Positions 48,209 to 64,000 of a stretch of 64,000 bases of DNA are shown piece by piece (the stretch's first letter is position 1; each line of letters opens with the position of its first letter). This DNA is from Salinigranum halophilum. Lineage in GTDB: Archaea; Halobacteriota; Halobacteria; Halobacteriales; Haloferacaceae. The notes under the pieces were generated by a model. It did not search any database, was not told the DNA's origin, and saw only the letters and a program-made list of their open reading frames with translations. The stretch is from positions 434,001 through 498,000 of the forward strand of contig NZ_SSNL01000005.1 in assembly GCF_007004735.1 (NCBI RefSeq), in the 5' to 3' direction. A program made the position numbers and the translations under genes.

Positions 48209-49555
48209 ATGGAAGATCGGCCGTCCGCGATCGATCTATTCTGTGGGGCAGGAGGTCTCACACAGGGACTCCGAGACGCGGATTTCGATGTCTGCTGGGC
48301 GATTGATTGTGATTCTGCTGCAGTAGAAACCTACCGACGAAACCACGGCAATCACGTAGTTGAAAAAGATATTCGTGAAACTGACCCGGGGATAGACGGA
48401 CCCGACATCGAACCAAGGGTACTCGACCTTGTGGCAGGTGGACCCCCATGTCCCTCCTTCTCTACTATTGGACGAGCAAAACTTGGTTCGCTGGAAAACA
48501 GATCGACCGAGGAAGACGACAGGAACATTCTCTACCGTGACTTCCTCCGGTACGTCGACTATTTCGAGCCCGCAGCCTTCATCATGGAGAACGTTCCGGG
48601 CCTGCTCAATGATACCGCGGTCGTCGAAACAGACACGATTCAGCAGTCGCTACCGACGTTCTCAGCGTCTACTGGGGAACCGGTCGGCAAGGAAACCCCA
48701 GTCCCCGAGATTATCCTCGAAGAGATGAGGGCACTCGGATATCACGCGGATTGGGAAATGGTCGACGCAGCTGACTACGGGGTTCCCCAGCATCGAAAGC
48801 GGGTTTTCTTCATCGGAACACGTGAGGGAGACAGCCTACCGGACCTCAATCAATGGGAAACACACCGTGAACCGAAGAACAAGACAGAGCGAACCATGCA
48901 GGTCCGGAGTAGCCCCGGGGCGTTCAAAGAATCCTCTCAGACTACGTTCAATACGGAGCCAGCAGTTCCACCTTTCAACCGAGGTGACACGGCCAAGCGA
49001 CCGTATGTGACTGTCGCGGACGCAATCATGGACCTGCCTCCGGTCTCACCTAGTGGAGAGATGCCGCCGAGAGAAGCGACGGAATACACCCTCCCCCCGG
49101 TTTCACCATATCAGGAATGGCTACGCGATATCCTGGAGGATGAAGACTGGGACGATCAACCGCTACGGAACCACAGTTGTCGGTGGCACAACCATCTGGA
49201 CCTCTCTATCTACAAACTGCTCGGGCATGGTGTCGGATGGAATATCGGGGACGTAAGCCAGGAGCTCCAGCCCTACCGCGATGATGTCTTCCCAGACAAG
49301 TACAAGAAACAGAATCCCTCCAAGCCGGCGTCAACCATTCTTGCACACATCCAGAAGGACGGCCACATGTTTATTCACCCCACTGAAGCCCGATCGCTCA
49401 CTGTCCGAGAGGCCGCCCGGTTGCAGTCATTTCGTGATTCATACTGGTTTCCGGAGAGCAGGACGAACGCGTATCGGCTTGTCGGAAACGCCGTGCCTCC
49501 ACGATTGGCACACGCTGTAGGCCATGCGACTAGAGAAGAAGTTCTCGAGTGTTAG
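48209..49555 (+). CDS. C5-cytosine DNA methyltransferase
   Basis: A 448-residue DNA (cytosine-5) methyltransferase. Motif I IDLFCGAGGLTQG (about 8-20), motif IV with catalytic C81 in GGPPCPSF (77-84), motif VI ENVPG (127-131), motif VIII HRKRVFFIG, motif IX REAARLQSF, motif X GNAVPP. The region between motifs VIII and IX is long, where target recognition lies. In DISARM class 2 a C5 methyltransferase (drmMII) marks self DNA; here it lies beside drmD/drmMI genes, so either role is possible. It converges on the CBS-HEPN gene, the stops being 8 nt apart. Confidence 0.92.
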   Translation: MEDRPSAIDLFCGAGGLTQGLRDADFDVCWAIDCDSAAVETYRRNHGNHVVEKDIRETDPGIDGPDIEPRVLDLVAGGPPCPSFSTIGRAKLGSLENRSTEEDDRNILYRDFLRYVDYFEPAAFIMENVPGLLNDTAVVETDTIQQSLPTFSASTGEPVGKETPVPEIILEEMRALGYHADWEMVDAADYGVPQHRKRVFFIGTREGDSLPDLNQWETHREPKNKTERTMQVRSSPGAFKESSQTTFNTEPAVPPFNRGDTAKRPYVTVADAIMDLPPVSPSGEMPPREATEYTLPPVSPYQEWLRDILEDEDWDDQPLRNHSCRWHNHLDLSIYKLLGHGVGWNIGDVSQELQPYRDDVFPDKYKKQNPSKPASTILAHIQKDGHMFIHPTEARSLTVREAARLQSFRDSYWFPESRTNAYRLVGNAVPPRLAHAVGHATREEVLEC

Positions 49556-49563
49556 GTCAGGGA

Positions 49564-50325
49564 CTATCGAGGACGTGGATTATCGGCGACAGCGGTGATG
49601 TATCCGTGGGCAAATTCGATTATATCAAGATCAAGCTCGCTCCGGTCTTCGATACGGAAGTGGAAGAGACGATTGCGGTGTTCTCCAATGCGGCTGACCA
49701 GCTGTCGAACGAAATCCTGCCGCTCGTGAAAGAACTCGTCGAACCCGTCGTTCCAGTTTTTTGAAATTAGGAATTCGTAGTGACTGAAGCTGCACTCGTC
49801 GAGGCTCTCAACGAGACGTAGATGGTCAGACTCCGAGGAGAGATCTCTCAACACCGCTGGAACCTCGTCGCCATAGACATCCCGAATGATGCTACGGATT
49901 GCGTTCTCAATGCCCTCGATCAGAAGAAAGGGCTGGGTGGACTCCCTCCAGAATTCGCGGATATCGTAGTCAGTAACAATTCTGTATCCGTCCGGGGAGT
50001 CCACGAGTACGTATGAGCGTTCGCCAAGAATGCTGAACAGAGTATTGAACTCATCATCGTGGTCGACTATCCGTGGCTTTTCGACTGCGAGTTCTGCTGT
50101 CCGGTTGCTCAGTCTCTTTGGCGAGTCGAACAGTTCGTCAGTTGCGAGCAACGCTCTTGCAATCGACTGATACGATACAGCGCCGATGAGTTCACCACTG
50201 CGGGTGATTCCAACCTGAGAGTACTGCCGTGCCAGCATTAGTTCGATTACGTCCCGCAGGTTTGTCTCCGCAGTAACCGTCTCAAAAGAGGGGGCGTCGA
50301 TCTCACCAACTGTATCAAACACCAT
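49564..50325 (-). CDS. CBS-domain protein fused to HEPN domain
   Basis: A 253-residue protein. Residues about 5-125 are a CBS pair (LRDVIELMLARQYSQVGITRSGELIGAVSY and SILGERSYVLVDSPDGYRIVTDYDI), which usually binds adenosine nucleotides. Residues about 130-250 are helical and contain EHRNRLFH, R217-N218-x3-H222, the RN(x3)H motif of HEPN ribonucleases, in the usual position on the last but one helix. Fusion of a nucleotide sensor with a HEPN RNase, in a defence island, points to abortive-type defence or regulation; there is no such known DISARM component. Confidence 0.75.
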   Translation of the reverse strand: MVFDTVGEIDAPSFETVTAETNLRDVIELMLARQYSQVGITRSGELIGAVSYQSIARALLATDELFDSPKRLSNRTAELAVEKPRIVDHDDEFNTLFSILGERSYVLVDSPDGYRIVTDYDIREFWRESTQPFLLIEGIENAIRSIIRDVYGDEVPAVLRDLSSESDHLRLVESLDECSFSHYEFLISKNWNDGFDEFFHERQDFVRQLVSRIGEHRNRLFHFRIEDRSELDLDIIEFAHGYITAVADNPRPR

Positions 50326-50591: not shown

Positions 50592-53534
50592 CTAATTCTC
50601 AAAGGCGTCGATAACGGCGGCCATGTTGATGAGCTCCGGCTCGTCAGGAATCACCTGCTCTTCCTCTTCAAGCCTCGCCAGCTCTGCATCCCGTTCTTTC
50701 TTTAATTCCTTGAGCTGGCTCTGTGCTTTCGCGAGAACGATGCGCATGTCTTCATCCGGCTGTGTGTCCCGTTCTTCGAAACGCTCGATCCGGTCCTCGA
50801 GGTCGTCGATACGGTACTCGAAGTATTTCTGTGTGTGCTCGCGTCGAATGCGGGCCTCTCGCTGTCGGTCTTCTCGTGCCTCGGCTGCCAGATTCTCTAT
50901 AACCTCCCAAGCGACAGCCTCTGCACGATCCACGAGATCGTCAGAACACGCAGAAATCACTTCGACTGCGGGATAATCGTTGGCGGCGGAAGGCGGGAGG
51001 CCACCGGTGATGTTGATGTTGCCAGTCTTCTCATCACCGTCTGGTGTCACGTAGACTTGGACGAGGCGCTCAGTGACTGTGTCGCCTGTCCCAGAGAGAT
51101 ATCCCACCCGGAAGTGGCAGAGTAATCCCGGTGTTGCCAAGTCTCTTCCGCCAGTCAGGACGGCCGTCTGTCCACCGACTGCGTCACTGTCGAGACAGAA
51201 CTGCATCATCGACCGCACGACTGGGTGGTCAAGGGCGATGAATTCGAGTGACTCGTCCTCAACAGCGTTCTTCCGGTCGAAGGTTGCGCCATCGTACCGG
51301 TCCTTCACTTCGCCCCCCGAGATCGGGTCTGGGACGACGAGGTCGAACACGTCGCCGCCGTCATCGGCGGGGCCGGACCGCACGTTGACAATCCGGCCAC
51401 CGAACTCGTTGCATACGGTCCGAACGAGGTACTCCACGTCCGCCTCGCTGATTGTGTCCTCTGCACTCTCGTCGATGATGTCGAGGATTTCCCGATCCTT
51501 CTCGCTCAGGTCGAAGCGGTCACGGATGAGCAACTCCTCGTCGACGCGGCGAACGGCTTCCTCCTGGTCTTCGACAATCGCGTCAAGATCTGCGGCGATT
51601 GAGTCCGTACCGTCGTTCTGAGCGATAGCGGTCATGATCTGCTCCTCGAGGTCGACGTTCTCCAGAACGAGCCCGAGGACATCCGAACTCATGCCCAGCG
51701 TTTCCTCGATCTCATCGAGCTTGTTCAACAGCAGTTCGAGGATGTCGCTCTCCCGTGTATCGTCGACGAACAGGTTCCGGATCTCGACCGTTCGTTCCTG
51801 CCCGTAGCGGTGGAGTCGACCGATGCGCTGGTCGATTCGCGTCGGATTCCACGGGAGATCGTAGTTGACCATGATGTGGGCGAACTGGAGGTTCAGCCCC
51901 TCGCGGGCGGCGTCCGTCGCCAGCATGATGTTGGCCTCCTTTTCGAACTTCTTCAGCTGGCGTCTCCGCTCGGGCTGTGAGAGGTCGCCATACACTTGAG
52001 CGACGTCGTGTTCGCTGAAGAGCCGGTCTCTGAGGTATTCCAGCGTGTCCGTGTACTCGGTGAAGATGAGGACCTTCTCGTCGGGGTCCTCGGCCAGCAC
52101 GCCGTCGACGAACTCGCGGAGCTGTTCGGCCTTGGTGTCGACGTCGATCGCCTTCGCTTGGTTGTAGAGGTCCCGGACGATTTGCAGCTCCTGTTTGACC
52201 TTCGCCGGATCACTGGATGCTGCCACGCTTCCGAGTTCCTCCTCGACCTTCTCCCGCTGGGCGTCGGTCAGCATCTCGGGGTCCTCGCGGTACTGCGGAA
52301 GGAGGCTCTTCGTGAGCTGAGACAGGTCGCCCGGATCCGCACCACCGGCCTGGATAGACTGCATCCGGTTCTTGAGCGACTTCCGGATGGCGTGAATCGA
52401 CGAGACGAGTCGCTTCTGGTAGAGGACCATCGCGAATCCCGCCGTGTCGTTGTCCTCTCTGTGGGCGAGGTTGTAGTGCTCCGTGATGTACTCAGTGACG
52501 TTCTCGTAGAGCTCCCGTTCCTCAGGCGTGAACGTGACCGGCAGCGTCTCGATGTTCTTCTCGGGGAACATCTTTGACCCGTCGGACTCGTACATCTCGC
52601 TCTTCAGCCGACGGATCATCAGGTCCCGAAGTCCCTCCTTGTTGACGTCGTGCTCGTCACGGAAGCGGTAGGGGTCCAACAGAGAGACCATGAAGTAGAA
52701 CTGATCGCGTTTCCCCTTATGGGGCGTCCCCGTCAGGAAGAGAAGCCCATCCGAGTTCTGCGACACTGCCTCGCCAACCCGGTAGCGCTCAGTCCTGTTG
52801 ATTCCACGCTTGCCCTCGCGGCGTGCCGTGAGGTGGTGAGATTCGTCGAAGATTGCGATGTCCCACTCTTCGTCCAGATTCTCCAGTGCCGCGAGCATGT
52901 CGTCCTGCTTCGCGAAGTCGATGGAGGTGATGATGCGGTCGTCGTGTGTCCAGACGTTTTTGTTCGGATGGGCACCGCGCTTCGCGTCGACGTAGTCGCG
53001 GTCGTACACGACGTAGTTGCTGTCGAACTTCTCGCGGAGTTCCTCCTGCCACTGGGTCGTAAGGGGCGCAGGCGCGACGATCAGCACTCTGTCGGCCTGC
53101 CCACGGGCAGCGAGTTCCTCGATGACGATGGCGGCCTCGATGGTCTTGCCGAGACCGACCTCGTCACCGATTAGATACCGGTGATTGTACGAGGTGAGGA
53201 TCTCGTAGGCGGCCTTCACCTGGTGTGGTGCGATGTCGATGCGGCTGCTCTCCAAGGTGACGAACCGGTCCTGCCGGTGGGCGAGGTCGAGTTCCGCAGC
53301 CCGAGAACGGAGATTGAAACGATCTGGTGCATCGAACTCACGGTTTGCGAGCAGCGTGTCGCTCCCCTCAACTTTGTCGACGACCGCGCTGGGGCGCTTG
53401 GTCTGTCCGCTATCGGTCAAGATCGTTAGCAAGCACTGCCCACTTGGGCGATGGTTAGCCTTTGCAACTTCCCCACTTCCGCCAGCGAAGCTTACGCGGT
53501 CGCCGACTTCGAATCCACATTCGCAGCTGGTCAC
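50592..53534 (-). CDS. drmD: SNF2-family helicase, DISARM DrmD-like
   Basis: A 980-residue SNF2/HepA-type ATPase. An N-terminal beta domain (about 1-60; GDRVSFAGGSGEV) is followed by Walker A GDEVGLGKT (123-131), the DEAH-like DESHH (230-234), a helicase C domain with LIFTEYTDTLEYLRD, TDAAREGLNLQ and motif VI RIDQRIGRLHRYGQ, and a C-terminal accessory domain with a coiled coil (about 900-965). In class 1 DISARM, drmD is such a helicase. It lies behind drmMI on the same strand with an inserted HNH gene between them; a diverged remnant of another drmD 5' end is on the far side. Confidence 0.88.
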   Translation of the reverse strand: MTSCECGFEVGDRVSFAGGSGEVAKANHRPSGQCLLTILTDSGQTKRPSAVVDKVEGSDTLLANREFDAPDRFNLRSRAAELDLAHRQDRFVTLESSRIDIAPHQVKAAYEILTSYNHRYLIGDEVGLGKTIEAAIVIEELAARGQADRVLIVAPAPLTTQWQEELREKFDSNYVVYDRDYVDAKRGAHPNKNVWTHDDRIITSIDFAKQDDMLAALENLDEEWDIAIFDESHHLTARREGKRGINRTERYRVGEAVSQNSDGLLFLTGTPHKGKRDQFYFMVSLLDPYRFRDEHDVNKEGLRDLMIRRLKSEMYESDGSKMFPEKNIETLPVTFTPEERELYENVTEYITEHYNLAHREDNDTAGFAMVLYQKRLVSSIHAIRKSLKNRMQSIQAGGADPGDLSQLTKSLLPQYREDPEMLTDAQREKVEEELGSVAASSDPAKVKQELQIVRDLYNQAKAIDVDTKAEQLREFVDGVLAEDPDEKVLIFTEYTDTLEYLRDRLFSEHDVAQVYGDLSQPERRRQLKKFEKEANIMLATDAAREGLNLQFAHIMVNYDLPWNPTRIDQRIGRLHRYGQERTVEIRNLFVDDTRESDILELLLNKLDEIEETLGMSSDVLGLVLENVDLEEQIMTAIAQNDGTDSIAADLDAIVEDQEEAVRRVDEELLIRDRFDLSEKDREILDIIDESAEDTISEADVEYLVRTVCNEFGGRIVNVRSGPADDGGDVFDLVVPDPISGGEVKDRYDGATFDRKNAVEDESLEFIALDHPVVRSMMQFCLDSDAVGGQTAVLTGGRDLATPGLLCHFRVGYLSGTGDTVTERLVQVYVTPDGDEKTGNINITGGLPPSAANDYPAVEVISACSDDLVDRAEAVAWEVIENLAAEAREDRQREARIRREHTQKYFEYRIDDLEDRIERFEERDTQPDEDMRIVLAKAQSQLKELKKERDAELARLEEEEQVIPDEPELINMAAVIDAFEN

Positions 53535-53639
53535 TGATAGGTACGATGTGACTCTCGGATTTAATATCTTTGCGGATAAATGCCGCCACAGTGCACCCAG
53601 TGTCCCGAATGACCATCCGTAAAACTCCTCCCGAGAATC

Positions 53640-54686
53640 ATGAATAGGGCGTTCAGAGTTGGCGAGCGATACCGAGACACGGGGAGTTTCAGGAACCCGG
53701 ATGACCAGTTTCTGCGCTGGATTCGTGGCCCACTGAGCAGTGGCATCAAAAACACGGGCGGGATTCGCGACCTTGGGACGGACCGCAGCGATGCTCCTTC
53801 AGCACTGGTACTGGTCTCGAACGACAAGGGTGTCTCTCAGCACGATGACCCGTGGGAAGACACGCTCGCAGTCGATTCGGGATACATCAGCTACTGGGGC
53901 GACGCCAAGGCGGAGAACCCCTACGACAAATCGAAACAGAACGAGAAAATCAAGGACGCGTTCGACAGGAAAGCGTCCGGCCGACGTGAGGAAGTCCCAC
54001 CGGTCCTCGTATTCCGGAAACCACAGTCTGGAACCGTCGAGTTCTGTGGGCTCTGTGTTCCTGACCACCTTGAGATCCGCTCCTATCAGGATGATTCAGG
54101 CACGCAGATTCCGAACTACCTCTTCCATTTCTCGATCCTCAACACGCAGTCTGTCCCGGTTTCCTGGCTCCACGACCGCGCACGGACGAACAGCTCTGCA
54201 AATGCCCCCGAGGTGTGGAAGCAGTGGGTTCGGACCGGAGACGTCAAGCAGTGGCCGACGGGGGAGCTCCTCGACTCCGTCGGTGGGACCATCCGACGCT
54301 ACGAGCAACCCGAAGTCGCCGTGAGCGACGCGTTCAGAGCTGAAACGTTTGAGCGATATGGTCGGGCGTGTACTCTGACCGACATCCGGGAGGAGACGCT
54401 GCTCGACCTAGCTCACGTGTTGCCCCGGAGCCAGCGGCCGGACCTCGCTGAGCATCCGGAGAACGTGTTCGTGCTGAACTCACTCCATCACCGGGCGTTC
54501 GACGCCCACCTCTTCACCATCGATAGCGAGTACAGGATTCGTGCCAGCCCCTCGTTCGATCCAGCTCATCCGTTCCTGAAACAGACGATCATCGACCGTC
54601 AGGGAGAGCGACTCACACTCCCACCCGATGCTCGAGTACAGTCTGCGTTCCTTGAAGAGTTGAATTCCAGTCTGTCTTGGCTGTAA
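53640..54686 (+). CDS. HNH endonuclease with putative modified-base reader domain
   Basis: A 348-residue protein. The N-terminal part (about 1-175; GYISYWGDAK, then RKPQSGTVEFCGLCVPDHLEI) resembles the SRA/PUA-like or AspBHI-type N-terminal domains which hold modified bases; the C-terminal part (about 238-300) is an HNH nuclease: CTLTDIR, LAHVLPRSQ with H259, N275/N280 and SLHHRAFD with H283-H284. Such architecture marks modification-dependent (type IV) restriction enzymes. It is divergent from drmD (105 nt apart) and points against drmMI, i.e. it is inserted in the DISARM operon. Confidence 0.7.
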   Translation: MNRAFRVGERYRDTGSFRNPDDQFLRWIRGPLSSGIKNTGGIRDLGTDRSDAPSALVLVSNDKGVSQHDDPWEDTLAVDSGYISYWGDAKAENPYDKSKQNEKIKDAFDRKASGRREEVPPVLVFRKPQSGTVEFCGLCVPDHLEIRSYQDDSGTQIPNYLFHFSILNTQSVPVSWLHDRARTNSSANAPEVWKQWVRTGDVKQWPTGELLDSVGGTIRRYEQPEVAVSDAFRAETFERYGRACTLTDIREETLLDLAHVLPRSQRPDLAEHPENVFVLNSLHHRAFDAHLFTIDSEYRIRASPSFDPAHPFLKQTIIDRQGERLTLPPDARVQSAFLEELNSSLSWL

Positions 54687-54704
54687 GCGAATCTCACCCT
54701 TTCT

Positions 54705-54850
54705 AGCTTGTCGACAACAGCGCTCGGGAGCTTGGTCTGTCCACTGTCGGTCAAGAACGTGAGCAGACACCTGCCACTCGATTGGTAGCTGACCTTTACA
54801 GCCTCGCACTTACCGCCAGCGAAGCTAACAGTCGCCGACCTCAAGTCCAC
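54705..54850 (-). pseudogene. Frameshifted remnant of a second drmD 5' end
   Basis: On the minus strand this 146-nt stretch encodes VSFAGGKCEAVKVSYQSS and RCLLTFLTDSGQTKLPSAVV, matching residues 14-57 of DrmD (30 of 44 positions identical by my count). At the start, GAC-CGC-GTA-AGC of drmD is GAC-TGT-TAG-C here: a 2-nt loss puts a stop in the native frame. It ends 15 nt from the stop of drmMI and breaks off next to the HNH stop. The divergence from the intact drmD argues against recent duplication. Confidence 0.8.
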
Positions 54851-54865
54851 AACCAGAGGCAGAGT

Positions 54866-57800
54866 TCAGTCTTTTAACATCATATATTGTTCCGAGATCG
54901 TTTGTGCGTCCATCTGTGAGTAAATTCGTTGTACGTCATCGTCAGATATTTCAAGAGTATCGAAAACCAATTTATCAATTTGTGCTTTATTCTGAGCAAT
55001 ATTGAGATCAATGTCTTCAATAGCAGACACCGAATTCTCGTACTCAGATTTCAATTTTGTTTGGAATGTTCTCGCTTCCGGATCTGGTGAAATCATACTG
55101 GAGTTATGTTTTGCAACGGACAGAATTCCCTTATCTGAGGAAAATTCGTGTTTCCAGTACTCTTTGACGTACGTTTTTCTTGCCAATTCTTCAAGATCGA
55201 CCCCCCAATCGGTCTGAATCCATTGTAGGAATCCTTCGATCTCGTCCCACCTGTCGGAGACCAATGATTTGGTATCACGAGCTATTTGTTCGAGCTGTTC
55301 GCTCTGGAACAGGGATTTGGTCGCTGGAATGTCCTCGACACTTCGCTGAGTGGAGTATCCTGTTCGGGTGCTGCTTTCAGTTTGGAGATATTTAGAGAGG
55401 CTGGAATTCAGTAATGCAACACCAGATTGCAGGCGAATATCATCTGTTTTTGGTTTTAAGATCGTAATATCTCGTCTCTCGTAGTAACCATTCTCTTCGA
55501 TCGCATACGGTTGCCAGTCATTCCCCCAATTGGAGTAGACGATTTTCGGTGTCGTAAATACTGACTCATCACGTGGCCAGTGGAGGCTGTACCATTCTAT
55601 CTTACCCTGCTGAACTTCTCGGCGAGATTCAAGTTTAGTTTTATAGCGTTCAAGATGTTCCCGAATTGATGGGTAGTCGTCTATTCGATCTTCTGAAGTG
55701 ATATATAACAAATATAGTTCTTCTGAATAATCAATCCAAAACTCAAAAATGTCGGAATTCCGATATGCGGGTCGAAGAAGCGGGTGATTGGCAGTAATAC
55801 CAATTCTGTCGAGGTCAGACGTTGTTAACAAGTAAACTCCTTCTCCGACTTCGAGTTCCTCATTGTCGAATTTGTCATACGATCTGGATGTGACCGTATC
55901 TGGATTAGGCACTATTCCCTGCTTTGAGGTTAGGAATTCCCCAATTGTTTCATTTGCAGAGGGTATATGTATAGGTCCTCGGGCCAGCTCTTTCAGACCT
56001 GTCCAAGGAGATCCGTCTTCTGGTAATGAAAATCCTCCATCAGTATATTGTGTAGAATAGAAGAGGTCCAGAGAACCATTTAGTGAGTCACTGAGCTCCT
56101 TCCTTGTCACTGAAGAATCTTTCAGGTACGCTATAGTTACTTCGTCTGGTTCACTTTTTGAAATTTTATGTATCTGATTCTGTTGACCCTTGGCATCGTC
56201 AAATATTGTATAATCACTGAAATGGATTATATTTTCTATCCAAGCATCTTCCAGCAAGTTAGCACGTAGTTCTTGGGCACTGTCTGCCTCTGGCCAATAT
56301 GCAGTAGTAATCATCGCAGAGGCACCAGACTGGTTTAGCAGCTTTGCCCCGAGCTGGACAAAGAAGTACAGCATATCCATTCGGCCGTGATAACAATTCT
56401 TTACCAGTGAAACCTTTTTTAATGTCTCAAAGGTTTCTTTTTGATTCTTTTCGCCGACATACGGTGGGTTACCAATAATTGCGTCAAAGCCAGGGTCTGT
56501 ATCTCCACTATGTTGGGAATAGAAAACATCAGGGAATTCTAATCTATAGTGGATCGGCTTCAATGTACTAGCTAATGTCTGAGCTCTCTCAAACCAATCA
56601 GAACTTGAGACGTCTTCCCATTCTTCAGTATCGTCGATGGCCCGTGCAAGGGCGGAGTAAGCATTGTCCGGAACGTGTTCCCCATACTGATCTAAAATAT
56701 ATACGTTCGCAATGGAATTCAACCGGTTTCTGAAAATATCTCTCTCAAATTCACCATACTTCTCTTCTATATATTTGATGTCCTCAAGTGTTTCATTGTC
56801 AGATGAAACGATATTTTGATGAATATCGAGCAACTTCTCAATACTATCTTTTTGTGTAACTCCAAACTCAGACAGCTGTGAATTCGGGCCAGCATCCTCA
56901 AATCCAGTGTCTAATTCGTCAATGTCCTCGATATTTGCGCCGATTAACGAATTGCCGGTTTTAAGATGGTGATCCAGAAACGCAAGAGGCTGCTCAGCTG
57001 CCAGAGTCCGAAGCCAGAGCGAGACTTTCGCCAATTCTGTGGCGAGTGGATTCAAATCGATGCCATAGATACACCGCTGAGCGATCTGTCTGCGAGCCCA
57101 GTTGATATCTCGAAGTTCGCCTTCTTTGGTGGTAGGCTCCTCTATAGAATCGATTCTCCCACTCTCGATGGCCTGTTTGTCCTGTCGCTCTTGCGCGTCG
57201 ATTATTTCACGGGCAAGATAATCCACAGCGTTCACCAGAAAGTGACCACTGCCCATTGCAGGATCGAGTATTTTGAGATTAAACACTCGCTCAGCGAAAT
57301 CCTTCGCAAACTGACCCCCACCCTCCTTATCAAACGGGTCTTGAGCAAGGAGATCCTCTCGAATGTCACTCACTATCGGATCAAGTGTTTCTTCTACGAT
57401 ATACTCGACAATATATTCGGGTGTATAATAAGAACCAGTAGCTTTTCGCTCACCAGCGTCTGTGCGGAGATATACGTCTCCTTCGTGCACTTCTATCACA
57501 TCACTCGATGTAGCAGGGGAGTACTCGCCTTCCTTTACAGTCAACGGCTGATCAGCAATATCAAGCTTGTATTCAAGTAATCCCTCGTAAATTGAGCCGA
57601 GATGACGCTCATCGAGTGAAGAATAATCGACAAACACCAGACCGTCGCCTTCGTCAGCGTCGCGTCGAGTCAGGAGGTCGATCACTTCCGCTACGTGCGC
57701 GTCGTCCGCTTTGTGAGTCGCGAGGAACTGTGCCTCTTCGCTGTCGTCTTGATCGGGACTGGTTCGGAACAGGCCACCATTGTACGCCGGAATGTAGAGT

Positions 57801-58876
57801 TGATCCTTCGGAATTCCCTGGCCCTGACTGCCTTGGTCAATGAGCAAGAACAGTTCCTCAAGCGTATCCCAAAGGTTAGTCTGCCAAGTCTGATAATGCT
57901 GCTGTGTCTCGTCACGTTTATCAACAACTTCCCGTTTCAACTCATTCAGACTGTAACTCTCGTTGTAAATGTCGTTGTCAGTGGGCAGGAGGTCACGCCC
58001 CTCACTCTCCGCGTACAGAACGAAGATGAGACGGTAGAGATAGATGAGCGAACTGTCGTGAATTAGCGGCAGGTCGTCCTCGCTGAGATTTTCGTTTGTG
58101 TCGAGGAAGCCCTCAGCGAGGACACGAATCGCATCGTAGATATTCTCTTGGAGGTCCTCCCCAATCGCCTCCGCGAACTTACCGGACTCGTCGTAGACGT
58201 CGTCGAGGAAACAGTCCCCTGACCGATCAGGCAGGAACGCCTGCTGTCGGAAGAAGAGATAGAAGTCTTTGAAATCCTCAATGCCACCCTCTCCCTCGAC
58301 GACCTCAAAGAGTTCGGGCAGGTCAATCTCGTAGTAGGAGTCTAGGCGGTGACTCGTCGGCCCGTAGTAGAGCCGCCATTGCTTCCCGTTCGTCAGCACC
58401 CCCCACTGGGGAGGGGTCTCCATGAGGTAGTCGTGGATCTGGTAGCTCGGGTTCTCGTAATCCCGCTTCTTTTCGCCACGAGTGTCGAGCTCTCGGCCCC
58501 AGTACTTCGCGTCGGCGACGGCGATCGCCTCCTCGTAGAAATCCGCTCGGTCGAACGCAGCATCCGCGGCTTCCGTACTCGGGAAAAAGCCGTAGTCCGG
58601 TCGCCGGGCGGTTCGCATGACCGTCTCCTCGATCTCGAACGGAATTCCGAGGATATCGAAGACGGGCCTGATGAAATTCCGCTCCAGCTGAGCCTCGTTG
58701 TAATCCGCGACTCGATCCTGCTTGTCAGTCCAGAGATCGCGGATTTCGTCGTACGCCTCACGGACCTCGGCCTCGTCAACTTCCTTCCAAGGCTCCGTCT
58801 GTCGGAGATGCTCGGTGAGGTAGTGGTTGGAAAAGAGGTCCCGATTCGTCCGATAGGGATGAGATTGCTGAGACAT
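54866..58876 (-). CDS. drmMI: Adenine-specific DNA methyltransferase with N-terminal nuclease motif, DrmMI-like
   Basis: A 1336-residue Eco57I-type protein. N-terminal type II restriction-like domain (about 40-190) with PDYGFF (93-98) and ADAKYWG (D122, K124), a PD-(D/E)xK-like pair; helical region (200-450); methyltransferase: motif X GSYYTPEYIV (481-490), motif I LDPAMGSGHF (537-546), motif IV NPPY (803-806); C-terminal target-recognition part and coiled coil. Motif NPPY indicates N6-adenine. In class 1 DISARM, drmMI is an adenine methyltransferase. Composition falls from GC-rich in the first third to AT-rich in the last two thirds. Start MSQQSHPYRTNRDL. Confidence 0.88.
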   Translation of the reverse strand: MSQQSHPYRTNRDLFSNHYLTEHLRQTEPWKEVDEAEVREAYDEIRDLWTDKQDRVADYNEAQLERNFIRPVFDILGIPFEIEETVMRTARRPDYGFFPSTEAADAAFDRADFYEEAIAVADAKYWGRELDTRGEKKRDYENPSYQIHDYLMETPPQWGVLTNGKQWRLYYGPTSHRLDSYYEIDLPELFEVVEGEGGIEDFKDFYLFFRQQAFLPDRSGDCFLDDVYDESGKFAEAIGEDLQENIYDAIRVLAEGFLDTNENLSEDDLPLIHDSSLIYLYRLIFVLYAESEGRDLLPTDNDIYNESYSLNELKREVVDKRDETQQHYQTWQTNLWDTLEELFLLIDQGSQGQGIPKDQLYIPAYNGGLFRTSPDQDDSEEAQFLATHKADDAHVAEVIDLLTRRDADEGDGLVFVDYSSLDERHLGSIYEGLLEYKLDIADQPLTVKEGEYSPATSSDVIEVHEGDVYLRTDAGERKATGSYYTPEYIVEYIVEETLDPIVSDIREDLLAQDPFDKEGGGQFAKDFAERVFNLKILDPAMGSGHFLVNAVDYLAREIIDAQERQDKQAIESGRIDSIEEPTTKEGELRDINWARRQIAQRCIYGIDLNPLATELAKVSLWLRTLAAEQPLAFLDHHLKTGNSLIGANIEDIDELDTGFEDAGPNSQLSEFGVTQKDSIEKLLDIHQNIVSSDNETLEDIKYIEEKYGEFERDIFRNRLNSIANVYILDQYGEHVPDNAYSALARAIDDTEEWEDVSSSDWFERAQTLASTLKPIHYRLEFPDVFYSQHSGDTDPGFDAIIGNPPYVGEKNQKETFETLKKVSLVKNCYHGRMDMLYFFVQLGAKLLNQSGASAMITTAYWPEADSAQELRANLLEDAWIENIIHFSDYTIFDDAKGQQNQIHKISKSEPDEVTIAYLKDSSVTRKELSDSLNGSLDLFYSTQYTDGGFSLPEDGSPWTGLKELARGPIHIPSANETIGEFLTSKQGIVPNPDTVTSRSYDKFDNEELEVGEGVYLLTTSDLDRIGITANHPLLRPAYRNSDIFEFWIDYSEELYLLYITSEDRIDDYPSIREHLERYKTKLESRREVQQGKIEWYSLHWPRDESVFTTPKIVYSNWGNDWQPYAIEENGYYERRDITILKPKTDDIRLQSGVALLNSSLSKYLQTESSTRTGYSTQRSVEDIPATKSLFQSEQLEQIARDTKSLVSDRWDEIEGFLQWIQTDWGVDLEELARKTYVKEYWKHEFSSDKGILSVAKHNSSMISPDPEARTFQTKLKSEYENSVSAIEDIDLNIAQNKAQIDKLVFDTLEISDDDVQRIYSQMDAQTISEQYMMLKD

Positions 58877-59144: not shown

Positions 59145-62100
59145 ATGACAGGGTTCGAGCCAGATACGGACGCCGGCCCTCCGGACGACGAGGAACGCAT
59201 CGCACGACACCTCCGAAAACGCATCACTGACCGGGTGAGCGGAAATCTCGAGGGTGAAGACGCTCGGGTCAAGCGCGACGCCCCGAGCGACAAATTCTTC
59301 GCCGGAGCACTGGCCCTCGATGGGAACAGCGACCTCGGGGACAGCGATGACGACGACCTCCAGTCGAAGATGGAGCCCCACGCTATCGGTACCATGACCC
59401 GCATCCGAAACGGGTCCGCCGGTGACACGATTTCCATCGACATCACGGGGAGCGTGTGGGTGCGCGTGAACCCGACCTACGAGGAGATGGACCGACGCGA
59501 GGAGTACGTCTCGCTGGCCGACCGCGACGACGACGAGACCGAGAACACCACGCTCCTCCCCGTCTTCGAACGCCTCGAACTGGAGGTACCATCGATCGAG
59601 GTCCCCTACGAGGCCATCGCAGGCGGAACCCGGACAACCCCGGAGGTCGTTCGGGAGCGCGCCTCCGAAGCGATCAGGGCGGCCGTGGACGACGCTCGCG
59701 AACGGGCTGTAGCGCGCGACGACATCTACCTCGACAACGGAGACGACAAGCCCGACGAGGACGTCCCGAACTACGTCCTCCAGAACGAGACGGCGTTCAA
59801 CGACTACCTCGAAGAACGGGACGGAACGCCGGCGATACCGGACTGGGACCTGTCAGTACAGGTCGTCACCACCGAGGACCGTGAGAGCAACGGTGACGAA
59901 CTCCTGCTCGACATCGAGGTCACGAACACGGGCAGACAGTCGAAGCGGGACTACGTCTACACGCTCCGCGACCCGACCCTGTTCGAGGTTCAGCTCGACC
60001 TCAGCGCGAACGGCGACGTGGAGTTCACCCCCTTCACGTTCGACCCCCTGCCCGAGGACTTCCGCTACAACCGCGACCTCTGGGGACACGGACGGAACTG
60101 CACGATCAACGCTCCCGACTACGAGGAGACGCTCGGTGATGCCACACCGGGTCGCTCCGCACCTCGTGCCGACCCGCACACGGACCACCTCAAAACGGAC
60201 TTCATCCCCGAGTACCGCCAGCTGGTCTACGAGTCCGCCGATCGAGGCGTGAACCCGGCGTTCAGCGAGCTCGCAGACCTTCAGGGCGGCGGGTACGAGG
60301 TACTGGAGTCGGTCGCGGACGCCATGGACGAGTACCTCGAAACCGCCTACCCGGAAGCCCTCCGGGAATACAAAAAGCGGGGCGACTGGACGGACGCCGA
60401 CCGCGAGGACTTCGAGGAAGACAGGGCTGCATTCGAACGCGAAATCATCCGATTCTGTCGTGGCATCCGCGTGCTTCGCGAACACCCGGACACGGTCGGG
60501 CGCGCGTTCGAACTGATGAACGAGTCGATGGACCGGATGCACGACTTCGACACGTGGCGACTGTTCCAGCTCGTGTTCATCGTCATGCTCGTTCCCGACA
60601 TCGCGGGCCGCGAGTACGAGGAGTGGGACGAGATTAGCTGGCGTGACGAGGAGGACCTCTCAGAGCGGTTCGAGAAGGCCGAAGGCGCCCTCGACGTCGT
60701 CGACGTGCTCTGGTTCCCGACCGGCGGCGGCAAGTCCGAGGCGTTCTTCGGTGTTGCCGTCTGGAACATGTTCTTCGACCGCATCCGGGGCAAACACTTC
60801 GGGGTGACGACGTGGACGCGGTTCCCGCTCCGTCTCCTGTCGCTCCAGCAGCTTCAGCGGATGTCGGAGACCATCATATACGCTGACCTCGTTCGCCGTG
60901 ACCAGGACGACATTGGGAGCCGCCCGTCTCGTCCGTTCAGTGTCGGTTTCCTCGTCGGCAAGAAGAACACGCCGAACGCGCTCACGGGCTACAACAACGA
61001 CAACTTCACGCGCTACAAGCAGGACGAGAAGCTCCGGGAGGAGGCGAAGGTCGTTCCGAGCTGCCCAGCCTGTGGGTCCCGGGTCGAGATGCGAGTCACG
61101 GAGGACATCCGCCTCGCGCACGTCTGTACCGGGAATCCCTTCGAGTGTGACTGGCAGAAGCGCGAGACCACGGCCCAGGAGGTCTACGCGGAGGACGAAC
61201 TCCCGATCCACGTCGTCGACAACGAGCTCTACCGCTACACGCCGAGCATCCTCGCGGGGACCATCGACAAGATCACCGCAGTCGGCTACCAGCGGAAGAT
61301 GGCACACATCCTGACGGGAGAGATGGAGTACGAGTGCCCGACGCACGGCTTCGCCAGTCTCGGTGAGTGTACCGAGAAGTACGGCTGTGACATCGACAAG
61401 GACGAGTTCGAGTTGATGGCGTCGCCGATAGACGTGTACGACCCGGCACCATCCCTGATGGTCCCCGACGAACTCCACCTCCTCGAAGAGAGCGTGGGGA
61501 GCTTCGACGGCCACTACGAGACGGGCGTCCAGACGCTCCAAGAGATCGTCGACGCCGGGAAGACGAAGGTACTCGCACCCACGGCGACGATCACGGCCTA
61601 CGAGGACCAGGTGTACCACCTGTTCCTTCGGCCCGCAGAGCGCTTCCCGTCGCCGGGCCCCTTCCTTCGCGAGAACTTCTACGCGATGGAACAGCCCGAG
61701 ACACAGCGGTACTACATGGGGCTCATCCCGCACGGGAAGACGCACATCAACTCCATCATCGACGTCCTGTTCACCTTCCACGAGGAGGTCCAGGACCTCC
61801 TCCGGATGGCGATGGAGTCGCCCGAGGACCTCCTCACGGGTGTAGCACTGGACGGGACCGATACCAGTGAGGCCCTGTCAGCGGACTCCATCGCGGAGGT
61901 CATCGACATCCTCACGCTCTACAGCACGAGCCTGACCTACCTGCTGTCGAAGAAGGACGGCGACCGTCTGGACCAGTCGTTCGTCAGCCAGCTGAACGCG
62001 TACTTCCGTGGGGAAGGCCGCCCGCCACTCAACTCCGAGCGCATGACTGGTGGGACGCCCTTCGAGGAGGTCCAGACCATTCTGGACCAGCTCGACGACC

Positions 62101-62948
62101 CGTGGCAGGAGGACGAAGACGATGCCCTCCTGCACAGCCTCGCCGACGACGGCCTCGTCGATGAGGATGACATCCCGGACATCATGGAGCTCCGTGATGT
62201 CCTCGCGGCAGAACTCGACGAGGACAGAACTCCGCGGACGGAGTTCCGCGTCGCCCTTCGTGCGGCGTCCCCCGAGGTGCGAGAAGGGCTCGCCTGGCTA
62301 CTCGCGTACCGTCCCAACACGGTGACCGCCACCAGCATGATCAGCCACGGGGTGGACGTCGACCGGTTCAACATGATGGTGTTCTTCGGAATGCCGCGTG
62401 CCACTGCTGAGTACATCCAGTCCAGTTCCCGGGCTGGTCGCGCACACCCCGGGCTTGTGTTCAACATCCTCCACCCCATCCGGGAACGTGACCTGAGTCA
62501 CTACCACTTCTTCGAGAAGTACCACCAGTTCCTCGACCGGCTCGTCGAACCCGTCTCGGTGAACCGATGGGCGAAGAACAGCGTCAAGCGGACGCAGCCG
62601 GGGCAGTTCATGTCGCTCCTGCTTAACCACTACATGTACACCGACGACGGGGAGCTGATGTACTTCGGTGACCGGGCCGAAGAGTTCCTCTCGACGGTCG
62701 ACGACGTCGACCTCGAGAACCTCCTCGTGGACATGTACGGTGGGTCGGAGGTCCCACCGGAGTTCAGCGACGACGTCCGGCAGCTCACCCGGAGTGCGAT
62801 CTCCGAGGTCCAGTTGAGTGACCGACAGTGGACGAGCGAGCGCCTCCCCGGTCCTCCGATGCGGAGCCTGCGTGACGTCGACGAACAGCTCCCGATCGAT
62901 CCTGAGTGGAAGTACAAGGACATCCTCAGCACCTACAACAACCGATAA
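59145..62948 (+). CDS. drmA: DISARM helicase DrmA
   Basis: A 1267-residue helicase-type protein. N-terminal domain (about 1-510); P-loop FPTGGGKSE (524-532), DExH motif PDELHLLEES (775-784); helicase C with TATSMISHGVDVDRF (about 1061-1075) and motif VI QSSSRAGRAHPG (1092-1103). Between them is a zinc-ribbon insertion, CPACG (C640, C643) with a second pair after about 15 residues. The long N-terminal domain and the insertion match DrmA. It is required, with DrmB, in all DISARM systems, where the pair forms a complex that binds and inhibits incoming DNA. It precedes drmB by 2 nt and is divergent from drmMI. Confidence 0.93.
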   Translation: MTGFEPDTDAGPPDDEERIARHLRKRITDRVSGNLEGEDARVKRDAPSDKFFAGALALDGNSDLGDSDDDDLQSKMEPHAIGTMTRIRNGSAGDTISIDITGSVWVRVNPTYEEMDRREEYVSLADRDDDETENTTLLPVFERLELEVPSIEVPYEAIAGGTRTTPEVVRERASEAIRAAVDDARERAVARDDIYLDNGDDKPDEDVPNYVLQNETAFNDYLEERDGTPAIPDWDLSVQVVTTEDRESNGDELLLDIEVTNTGRQSKRDYVYTLRDPTLFEVQLDLSANGDVEFTPFTFDPLPEDFRYNRDLWGHGRNCTINAPDYEETLGDATPGRSAPRADPHTDHLKTDFIPEYRQLVYESADRGVNPAFSELADLQGGGYEVLESVADAMDEYLETAYPEALREYKKRGDWTDADREDFEEDRAAFEREIIRFCRGIRVLREHPDTVGRAFELMNESMDRMHDFDTWRLFQLVFIVMLVPDIAGREYEEWDEISWRDEEDLSERFEKAEGALDVVDVLWFPTGGGKSEAFFGVAVWNMFFDRIRGKHFGVTTWTRFPLRLLSLQQLQRMSETIIYADLVRRDQDDIGSRPSRPFSVGFLVGKKNTPNALTGYNNDNFTRYKQDEKLREEAKVVPSCPACGSRVEMRVTEDIRLAHVCTGNPFECDWQKRETTAQEVYAEDELPIHVVDNELYRYTPSILAGTIDKITAVGYQRKMAHILTGEMEYECPTHGFASLGECTEKYGCDIDKDEFELMASPIDVYDPAPSLMVPDELHLLEESVGSFDGHYETGVQTLQEIVDAGKTKVLAPTATITAYEDQVYHLFLRPAERFPSPGPFLRENFYAMEQPETQRYYMGLIPHGKTHINSIIDVLFTFHEEVQDLLRMAMESPEDLLTGVALDGTDTSEALSADSIAEVIDILTLYSTSLTYLLSKKDGDRLDQSFVSQLNAYFRGEGRPPLNSERMTGGTPFEEVQTILDQLDDPWQEDEDDALLHSLADDGLVDEDDIPDIMELRDVLAAELDEDRTPRTEFRVALRAASPEVREGLAWLLAYRPNTVTATSMISHGVDVDRFNMMVFFGMPRATAEYIQSSSRAGRAHPGLVFNILHPIRERDLSHYHFFEKYHQFLDRLVEPVSVNRWAKNSVKRTQPGQFMSLLLNHYMYTDDGELMYFGDRAEEFLSTVDDVDLENLLVDMYGGSEVPPEFSDDVRQLTRSAISEVQLSDRQWTSERLPGPPMRSLRDVDEQLPIDPEWKYKDILSTYNNR

Positions 62949-62950
62949 CA

Positions 62951-64000
62951 ATGTCAATGGAACGTAGCAAGTCGCAGGTACTCTACCAGTTCCTGCCCGA
63001 GAACACGTTCGACTACAGCGGTCAGCGGGGCATCTGGAAGACCACGCGACTTGAGACGAGCGATGCGAGTGGTACCGTCAGCAAGGACTACATCCTCGGC
63101 CGCGTCCTCGCACGCATCCGAAACTGGGACGGGGGCCAGAACGGCTTCGTCTCGAACAACACCGACCACTACCACTTCGGCGTCCCCGAGGGTGTCCGGG
63201 CCGAACCGTTCCCCACGACCTACGAGTGCCAGAAGTGCGACAAAGCGCACGGGTACTACACCGCAGACGAGGTCAAGAACAACAACCCTGATCTCACCTG
63301 TGAGCGATCTGGCTGTAACGGGAACCTCGAACAGTACCAGTTCGTGAGTGTTCACACCTGCGGAGAAATCCGACGCCTCTACCCGCAGAAGTGCCCAAAC
63401 CACGGGGACCAGCACGTCATACTCAACCGCCGAAACAGTCAACGTGTCCGGAACTTCCACTGGAGCTGTGAGGTCGGTAACTGTTCATGGGACACTCCCA
63501 TCCGGAACTACCAGAACTGCAATTGCGACTACATGGCCCCCGAAGCAGAGGAGAATGACGGGATGTACACGACGGTCCACCGGGCCGGGAGCGTCTTCTA
63601 CCCCCACTACCTCTCGACAGTGAACCTGCACACCGCAGGCATCGGGCACCTCCGGAACTCTGAGGACGGAGCAAAGAGAGCGATCGCGAAGCTGTTCGGA
63701 CTGTCAGATGCCGGGTCGCTTCAGGACGTCAGTCTGCACCAGCGAACCGGCCAGGTCGAGGTAGACGACGAGAAGGTGGTGGAGATCTACACCACACACG
63801 ACGACATCACCACGCTCGACCAGGCACGTGAGCACCTCCGTGAACAGGGGACGCTGGAGAGCCAGACCATCCTCGAGCGTCTCGGCGAGACACTCGCTCT
63901 CGATACGGACGGCGAAACCTCCGAGCTCACCGAGGCTGGTGACGAGATTCTCCAGTACGTCCTCAGCCGCGAGTCGCTCACGACGGATACACTGGACGAA
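62951..64000 (+). CDS. drmB: DISARM protein DrmB (DUF1998 type), 3' end outside window
   Basis: 350 residues visible from MSMERSKSQVLYQFLPENTF; the C-terminus, which would hold the DUF1998 domain, is beyond the edge. There are many paired cysteines: CQKC, CERSGC, CGEI, CPNHG, CEVGNC, CNCDY, suggesting two to three zinc ribbons in the first 200 residues. It begins 2 nt after the drmA stop, so translation is coupled. In DISARM, DrmB partners DrmA. drmC (phospholipase D family nuclease) would be expected next. Confidence 0.9.
   Translation, partial: MSMERSKSQVLYQFLPENTFDYSGQRGIWKTTRLETSDASGTVSKDYILGRVLARIRNWDGGQNGFVSNNTDHYHFGVPEGVRAEPFPTTYECQKCDKAHGYYTADEVKNNNPDLTCERSGCNGNLEQYQFVSVHTCGEIRRLYPQKCPNHGDQHVILNRRNSQRVRNFHWSCEVGNCSWDTPIRNYQNCNCDYMAPEAEENDGMYTTVHRAGSVFYPHYLSTVNLHTAGIGHLRNSEDGAKRAIAKLFGLSDAGSLQDVSLHQRTGQVEVDDEKVVEIYTTHDDITTLDQAREHLREQGTLESQTILERLGETLALDTDGETSELTEAGDEILQYVLSRESLTTDTLDE

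Follow-up and report, generated by a model that had tools for sequence, protein, structure and literature searches.

DISARM and the locus in the window

The closest described system is DISARM, which in its class 1-like form comprises drmA, drmB, drmC, drmD and drmMI (PMC9142583). We analysed a stretch of 64,000 nucleotides from the haloarchaeon Salinigranum halophilum (contig NZ_SSNL01000005.1, positions 434,001 to 498,000; hereafter the window), where the PADLOC models recover all core and class 1 genes of this system in a locus that carries drmMII too. Unlike in the described system, drmD is here uncoupled from drmMI by a short drmD remnant (hereafter the stub) and an HNH gene. The features of the locus, in window coordinates, are:

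48209-49555, plus strand: drmMII, C5-cytosine methylase
49564-50325, minus strand: gene with CBS and HEPN-like domains, conserved between drmD and drmMII
50592-53534, minus strand: intact drmD, SNF2-type helicase, 980 aa, GTG start, uncoupled from drmMI
53535-53639, strand not given: divergent intergenic region between HNH (plus) and drmD (minus), with the presumed promoters of both
53640-54686, plus strand: HNH gene, 348 aa
54687-54869, minus strand: drmD stub, decayed codons 1 to ~61, with a 2-nt frameshift near 54830 and no ATG or GTG start
54866-58876, minus strand: drmMI, adenine methylase, 1336 aa
54500-58170 (ends approximate), strand not given: putative block of discordant ancestry, namely the drmMI 3' part, the stub and the HNH tail
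59145-62948, plus strand: drmA (PADLOC DrmA, 1e-149)
62906-64000, plus strand: start of drmB, which runs on past the window (L112:906-2909) and is followed by drmC, outside the window

The gene order is therefore drmMII, the CBS/HEPN-like gene, drmD, HNH, the stub, drmMI, drmA and the beginning of drmB, with drmC lying just beyond the edge. Besides the drmA helicase, drmB (PADLOC DrmB, 1.3e-53; no Pfam DUF1998 match in this protein) and drmC (PADLOC DrmC, 5.5e-13; PLDc_2, 1.5e-12) are present, as is the class 1 pair of a drmD SNF2 helicase and a drmMI methylase, although PADLOC scored drmD higher as BrxHII (2e-166) than as DrmD (2e-110). We accordingly predict a class 1-like DISARM system that additionally possesses drmMII. 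An identity as ARMADA or BRIGADE (preprint PMC12458937) was considered and rejected, as the separate drmA, drmB and drmC genes and the PADLOC hits argue for DISARM.

The HNH protein combines an RE_AspBHI_N domain (residues 22-200; Pfam, 3e-39) with an HNH_2 domain (residues 244-295), and its closest solved structure is AspBHI (PDB 4oc8; 1.5e-14, residues 34-204). As a 5mC sensor of the AspBHI type and an HNH nuclease domain are united in one polypeptide, it is predicted to be a modification-dependent endonuclease. It thus resembles the AspBHI/MspJI (SRA-PD-(D/E)XK) and TagI (SRA-HNH) families in having an AspBHI-type N-terminal sensor and a C-terminal HNH domain; the nuclease of AspBHI itself is of the PD-(D/E)XK type, unlike that of the window protein, and the functional analogues are SRA-HNH enzymes like TagI (PMC6212794). 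A search of the HNH protein against TagI gave no sequence match at E 0.1. The divergent pairing of HNH and drmD, with a gap of ~110 nt, is kept in three related genomes (G234, G188 and G285), and modification-dependent HNH nucleases of this predicted kind are a recurrent accessory or companion of DISARM. Close relatives of the DISARM-linked HNH gene (73-77%) are also common as solo chromosomal genes in haloarchaeal genomes (e.g. L036-L047); no DISARM genes were found in the ~1.5 kb flanks of these solo copies, and no drmD pieces at them with a meaningful score.

By analogy only, the role of the HNH enzyme might resemble that of BrxU, the nested type IV enzyme of a BREX island (PMC8565348): both are modification-dependent nuclease genes, predicted as such in the window, within a methylation-based defence locus. 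The difference is that BREX harbours a GmrSD enzyme, whereas the DISARM of the window contains the AspBHI-HNH protein and has a GmrSD-type gene just downstream of drmC. This gene (L112:4032-6497, corresponding to ~66032-68497 in window numbering and thus outside the window; GmrSD_N, 3e-25; GmrSD_C, 1e-7) directly follows drmC and is predicted to code a second modification-dependent enzyme beside the DISARM locus. Beyond it come another C5-cytosine methylase, of 776 aa, and then a TFB gene. The protein encoded at 49564-50325, which unites a CBS domain with a weak HEPN (Swt1-like) domain, is 92-94% conserved in G234 and in Haloferax larsenii and could possibly be an RNase accessory.

The drmD stub and the drmMI/drmD joint in relatives

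A separation of 179 nt lies between the stop codon of the HNH gene (54684-54686) and the TGA of drmMI (54866-54868). The stub occupies this gap entirely, with weak drmD similarity ending only a few bases short of the HNH stop. Its DNA aligns to the 5' end of drmD with a score of 155, whereas none of 200 shuffles scored above 34, and the match amounts to 76% over ~146 nt (blastn) and to 69.8% identity over 43 aa, corresponding to drmD residues 14-56 (tblastn). A preliminary description of this DNA had reported a 146-nt drmD remnant behind drmMI with 68% identity over 44 residues and a 2-nt frameshift; these figures are about right, and the 2-nt deletion indeed breaks the reading frame near 54830. 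The remnant is somewhat longer than that, representing codons 1 to ~61 in minus-strand reading (~180 nt), and the interval of 53535-54865 originally assigned to it additionally spans the complete HNH gene along with the region of the drmD promoter. With the frameshift and without an ATG or GTG start, its coding capacity is gone. At its beginning, an in-frame CTG overlaps the TGA of drmMI (CTGA; 54866-54868).

To place this position in context we used 46 loci in which a drmD (at least ~50% identity) lies downstream of a same-strand drmMI, from a sample of 391 haloarchaeal genomes. The two genes overlap or almost touch in 25 of the 46, making this the commonest layout, so that the stub sits exactly where a drmD start is expected, as had been proposed. 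Both its significant similarity to the drmD 5' end and its position at the drmMI/drmD overlap thus mark it as a pseudogene of this origin, and it appears to be the truncated beginning of a drmD that was formerly translated in overlap with the present drmMI.

Among the remaining loci, 15 have intervening material without a detectable stub, one type consisting of HNH alone or HNH with one small gene. The spacing between the drmMI and HNH stops is conserved at 14-18 nt in seven loci (L072, L075-L078, L080 and L109). HNH is accompanied by other genes between drmMI and drmD in L071, the locus of G234, where a TATA-binding protein (TBP) gene is present, and in L109 and L110. A TBP gene occupies the joint in L022, L023, L024, L125 and L128, and a Nmad2/Nmad3 protein in L079. 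The last six loci, including the window, contain a drmD stub or pseudogene. In L073 (G208) a ~110-codon stub is followed by HNH and drmD, with an older HNH fragment farther upstream, and the junction of stub and HNH end is shared with the window. L082 has a nearly full-length broken drmD, then TBP and a full drmD; in L083 a stub of ~117 codons and drmD are separated by 5 kb of other genes, one of them for a Nmad3 protein; in both L029 and L117 drmMI is followed by a ~50-codon stub, TBP and drmD. As L082 and L083 may share one event, and L029 and L117 likewise, the five loci other than the window represent at least three further events, giving at least four of the stub type in all. The pseudogene or stub of L082 and L083 groups with the drmMI-adjacent, HNH-free drmD lineage (bootstrap 100), and their intact drmD belongs to another lineage, so that the displacement of one drmD by another is well documented in these two loci.

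TBP genes are found at the joint or just behind drmD in L071 (11391-11939), L082, L073, L022-L024, L029, L117, L125 and L128, and two of these score 1e-31 and 4e-39 with the Pfam TBP model. As TBP genes have been reported from TALON systems too (PMC12458937), the DISARM-linked versions may be functional. Nmad3 and Nmad2/Nmad3 domain proteins take the place of HNH between drmMI and drmD in L083 and L079, which suggests that proteins linked to modification accumulate at this joint. Some loci show decay of HNH and even of drmD: the middle of HNH is deleted in L078 (G256), and in L080 (G092) HNH is broken and drmD has an in-frame stop after codon 363. We found no description of HNH enzymes or stubs at the drmMI/drmD joint of DISARM in the part of the literature that was covered.

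Ancestry of the locus and of the stub

G234 is the nearest relative of the window for drmA (96%), the CBS/HEPN-like gene (94%), drmMII (89%), HNH (88%) and drmD (96%). Nucleotide identity between the two is mostly 80-97% from drmMII through drmD and the body of HNH, and again over drmA. Between these, 54625-56910 has no nucleotide match to G234, and the drmMI segment at 57000-58000 reaches only 68-78%. In keeping with this, drmMI is closer to L071 than to L073, L074 or L081 up to about codon 230, after which this closeness is lost (0/500 permutations in each case); codons 1 to ~235 are hence nearest to G234 and the remainder is of other ancestry. Beyond codon 700 the C-terminal half has at most ~45% identity to any DISARM drmMI. 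From codon ~800 on, a solitary methylase gene in G153 is the only one that comes fairly close (58-62% in each 100 residues across most of codons 801-1200); for the last ~150 aa there is no close relative. The final 100-200 nt of the HNH gene are also unusually divergent, and this 3' tail is variable in every pair compared; it probably belongs to the differently descended piece as well. Close relatives likewise show similar flanks around a different middle segment, as in L071 with its order drmMI-TBP-HNH, and in L072 (G188) the HNH tail and the drmMI end resemble those of the L075 group, a likely sign of recombination within HNH. Two points temper the boundary in drmMI: rapid divergence of target-recognition halves can give the false appearance of a breakpoint, and L071 itself looks recombinant in drmMI, so that the affinity may have been lost on the L071 side, which weakens the argument on direction.

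Among all drmD alleles examined, the stub comes nearest to those of G234 (117/153 sites) and the window (113/153), followed by G208 (109), G188 (101) and L074 (98), whereas the HNH-free lineage L084-L090 shares only 71-78 of 147-153 sites. The maximum-likelihood tree places the stub just outside the group of the window, G234 and G188. The AU test over the ~150 nt alignment does not separate attachments to the window (p 0.20), G234, L074 (0.38) and the L075 group; of the alleles with drmD adjacent to drmMI it rejects L081 (0.002) but does not reject L074. Because the stub offers only ~150 nt and has undergone neutral decay, its placement goes no finer than the clade of the window and L071-L074. 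The earlier statement that the stub is diverged from the current drmD is correct, and as it is no nearer to the window gene than to that of G234, a recent duplication is not its likely source; yet these two genes remain the nearest to it of the alleles examined. The companion expectation, that it would group with HNH-free alleles directly behind drmMI, was not clearly borne out, for it falls in or next to the clade of the window. To judge from these alignments, the stub derives from a drmD within the broad clade to which that of the window belongs, and probably neither from a recent copy of the window gene nor from the distant HNH-free lineage.

A donor locus with the drmMI C-terminal half of the window followed by an intact drmD was not found among the 391 genomes. 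Plasmids, searched for the stub and for the drmMI C-terminal half, yielded HNH-linked relatives but no donor of the stub; viral contigs yielded no drmD, and a further 224 genomes drawn from the order added no new close-lineage drmD loci.

Origin of the arrangement

Swapping of target recognition occurs in restriction-modification and type IIG enzymes. The conserved N-terminal and presumably exchanged C-terminal half of drmMI are comparable to this, with the difference that the swap in drmMI seems to pass the stop codon and to drag along the start of the next gene. We favour, with a probability of roughly 0.55, the view that two related DISARM alleles of haloarchaea recombined to form the locus, a drmMI 3' half and the drmD start attached to it being joined to an HNH-drmD-drmMII block. 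An allele with overlapping drmMI and drmD would have given the drmMI 3' part, that is the target-recognition half, along with drmD codons 1 to ~61; the second allele would have given the block of HNH, drmD, the CBS/HEPN-like gene and drmMII and, most parsimoniously, drmA and the drmMI N-terminus too. The two might have been joined illegitimately at the 3' end of HNH, after which the orphaned drmD start, made dispensable by the complete, separately promoted drmD alongside, would have decayed; the intact drmD would be expressed from that promoter next to HNH. The stub, its position, the mosaic affinities and the parallel stubs of other loci are observed, and we infer the direction of this exchange, the mechanism of the joint and the functional outcome. 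For the cell, that outcome would probably be a drmMI whose recognition half is new, with a functional drmD and the predicted modification-dependent nuclease retained.

A tentative alternative is that the joint is a recurrent cassette site of haloarchaeal DISARM, at which cargo (the predicted modification-dependent HNH nuclease, TBP or Nmad2/Nmad3 proteins) arrives together with a self-promoted drmD and the old drmD start is left, or duplicated, by drmMI. If so, DISARM could trade recognition halves as well as accessory nucleases.

Rather doubtful is the original proposal for the window, according to which a unit of HNH and drmD came in and replaced a resident drmD that overlapped drmMI, of which the first ~61 codons stayed behind. 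This would produce the same final anatomy, and cargo plus drmD behind a drmD stub does recur (L073, L082/L083 and L029/L117): the full drmD of L082 and L083 is clearly of another lineage than the remnant behind drmMI, and L073, with its stub at the HNH end and the older HNH fragment upstream, looks as if HNH-drmD had arrived twice. However, HNH and drmD are not alien to the window, as they share their nearest relative, G234, with drmA, the CBS/HEPN-like gene and drmMII; the HNH-linked clade is also the nearest to the stub, and it is drmMI that is the discordant piece. An incoming HNH-drmD unit is thus not the simplest reading. More likely the swapped-in piece was the neighbouring methylase half rather than drmD, so that an incoming drmMI 3' half would have dragged in the start of the drmD overlapping it, though the comparisons prove neither direction.

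An unlikely further option is a loop-in, in which a DNA circle, or a tandem duplication, with HNH and a drmD 5' end on it would have recombined at drmD, doubling codons 1-61 around HNH and leaving the original drmD body in place. In its favour, the stub and the beginning of the intact drmD are direct repeats of each other, the former corresponds exactly to a drmD 5' end and lies flush against the HNH stop, and a like anatomy exists in L029 and L117 with TBP as cargo; against this, the site counts given above (113/153 for the window gene, 117/153 for G234) speak against a recent duplication, and the deviant 3' half of drmMI is left unexplained. Finally, short and frameshifted as the stub is, a chance similarity or an unrelated small ORF is ruled out by the shuffle test (155 versus 34), the exact operonic position and the parallels in other loci.

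As a process the event is ordinary, the stub being apparently a recombination scar of a known kind and not a new system. Its value lies in the evidence that it gives for a modular exchange within DISARM: it indicates that haloarchaeal DISARM loci are shuffled gene-piece by gene-piece, with drmMI/drmD as a preferred joint, and that drmD tolerates uncoupling from drmMI. Whether the recognition halves of drmMI are swapped as modules, and whether the specificity of the nuclease is compatible with the cytosine methylase of its own locus, are now testable questions. On the Haloferax larsenii plasmid pHl5678-1 (L111), drmD, the CBS/HEPN-like gene (92%) and drmMII (89%) form a three-gene unit, in which the drmD N-terminus is divergent and near which drmA and drmMI are absent. 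L073 (G208) has a second drmD-like gene (47% identity), convergent to drmMII, so that three forms of drmD coexist in this locus, one full, one reduced to a stub and one diverged.
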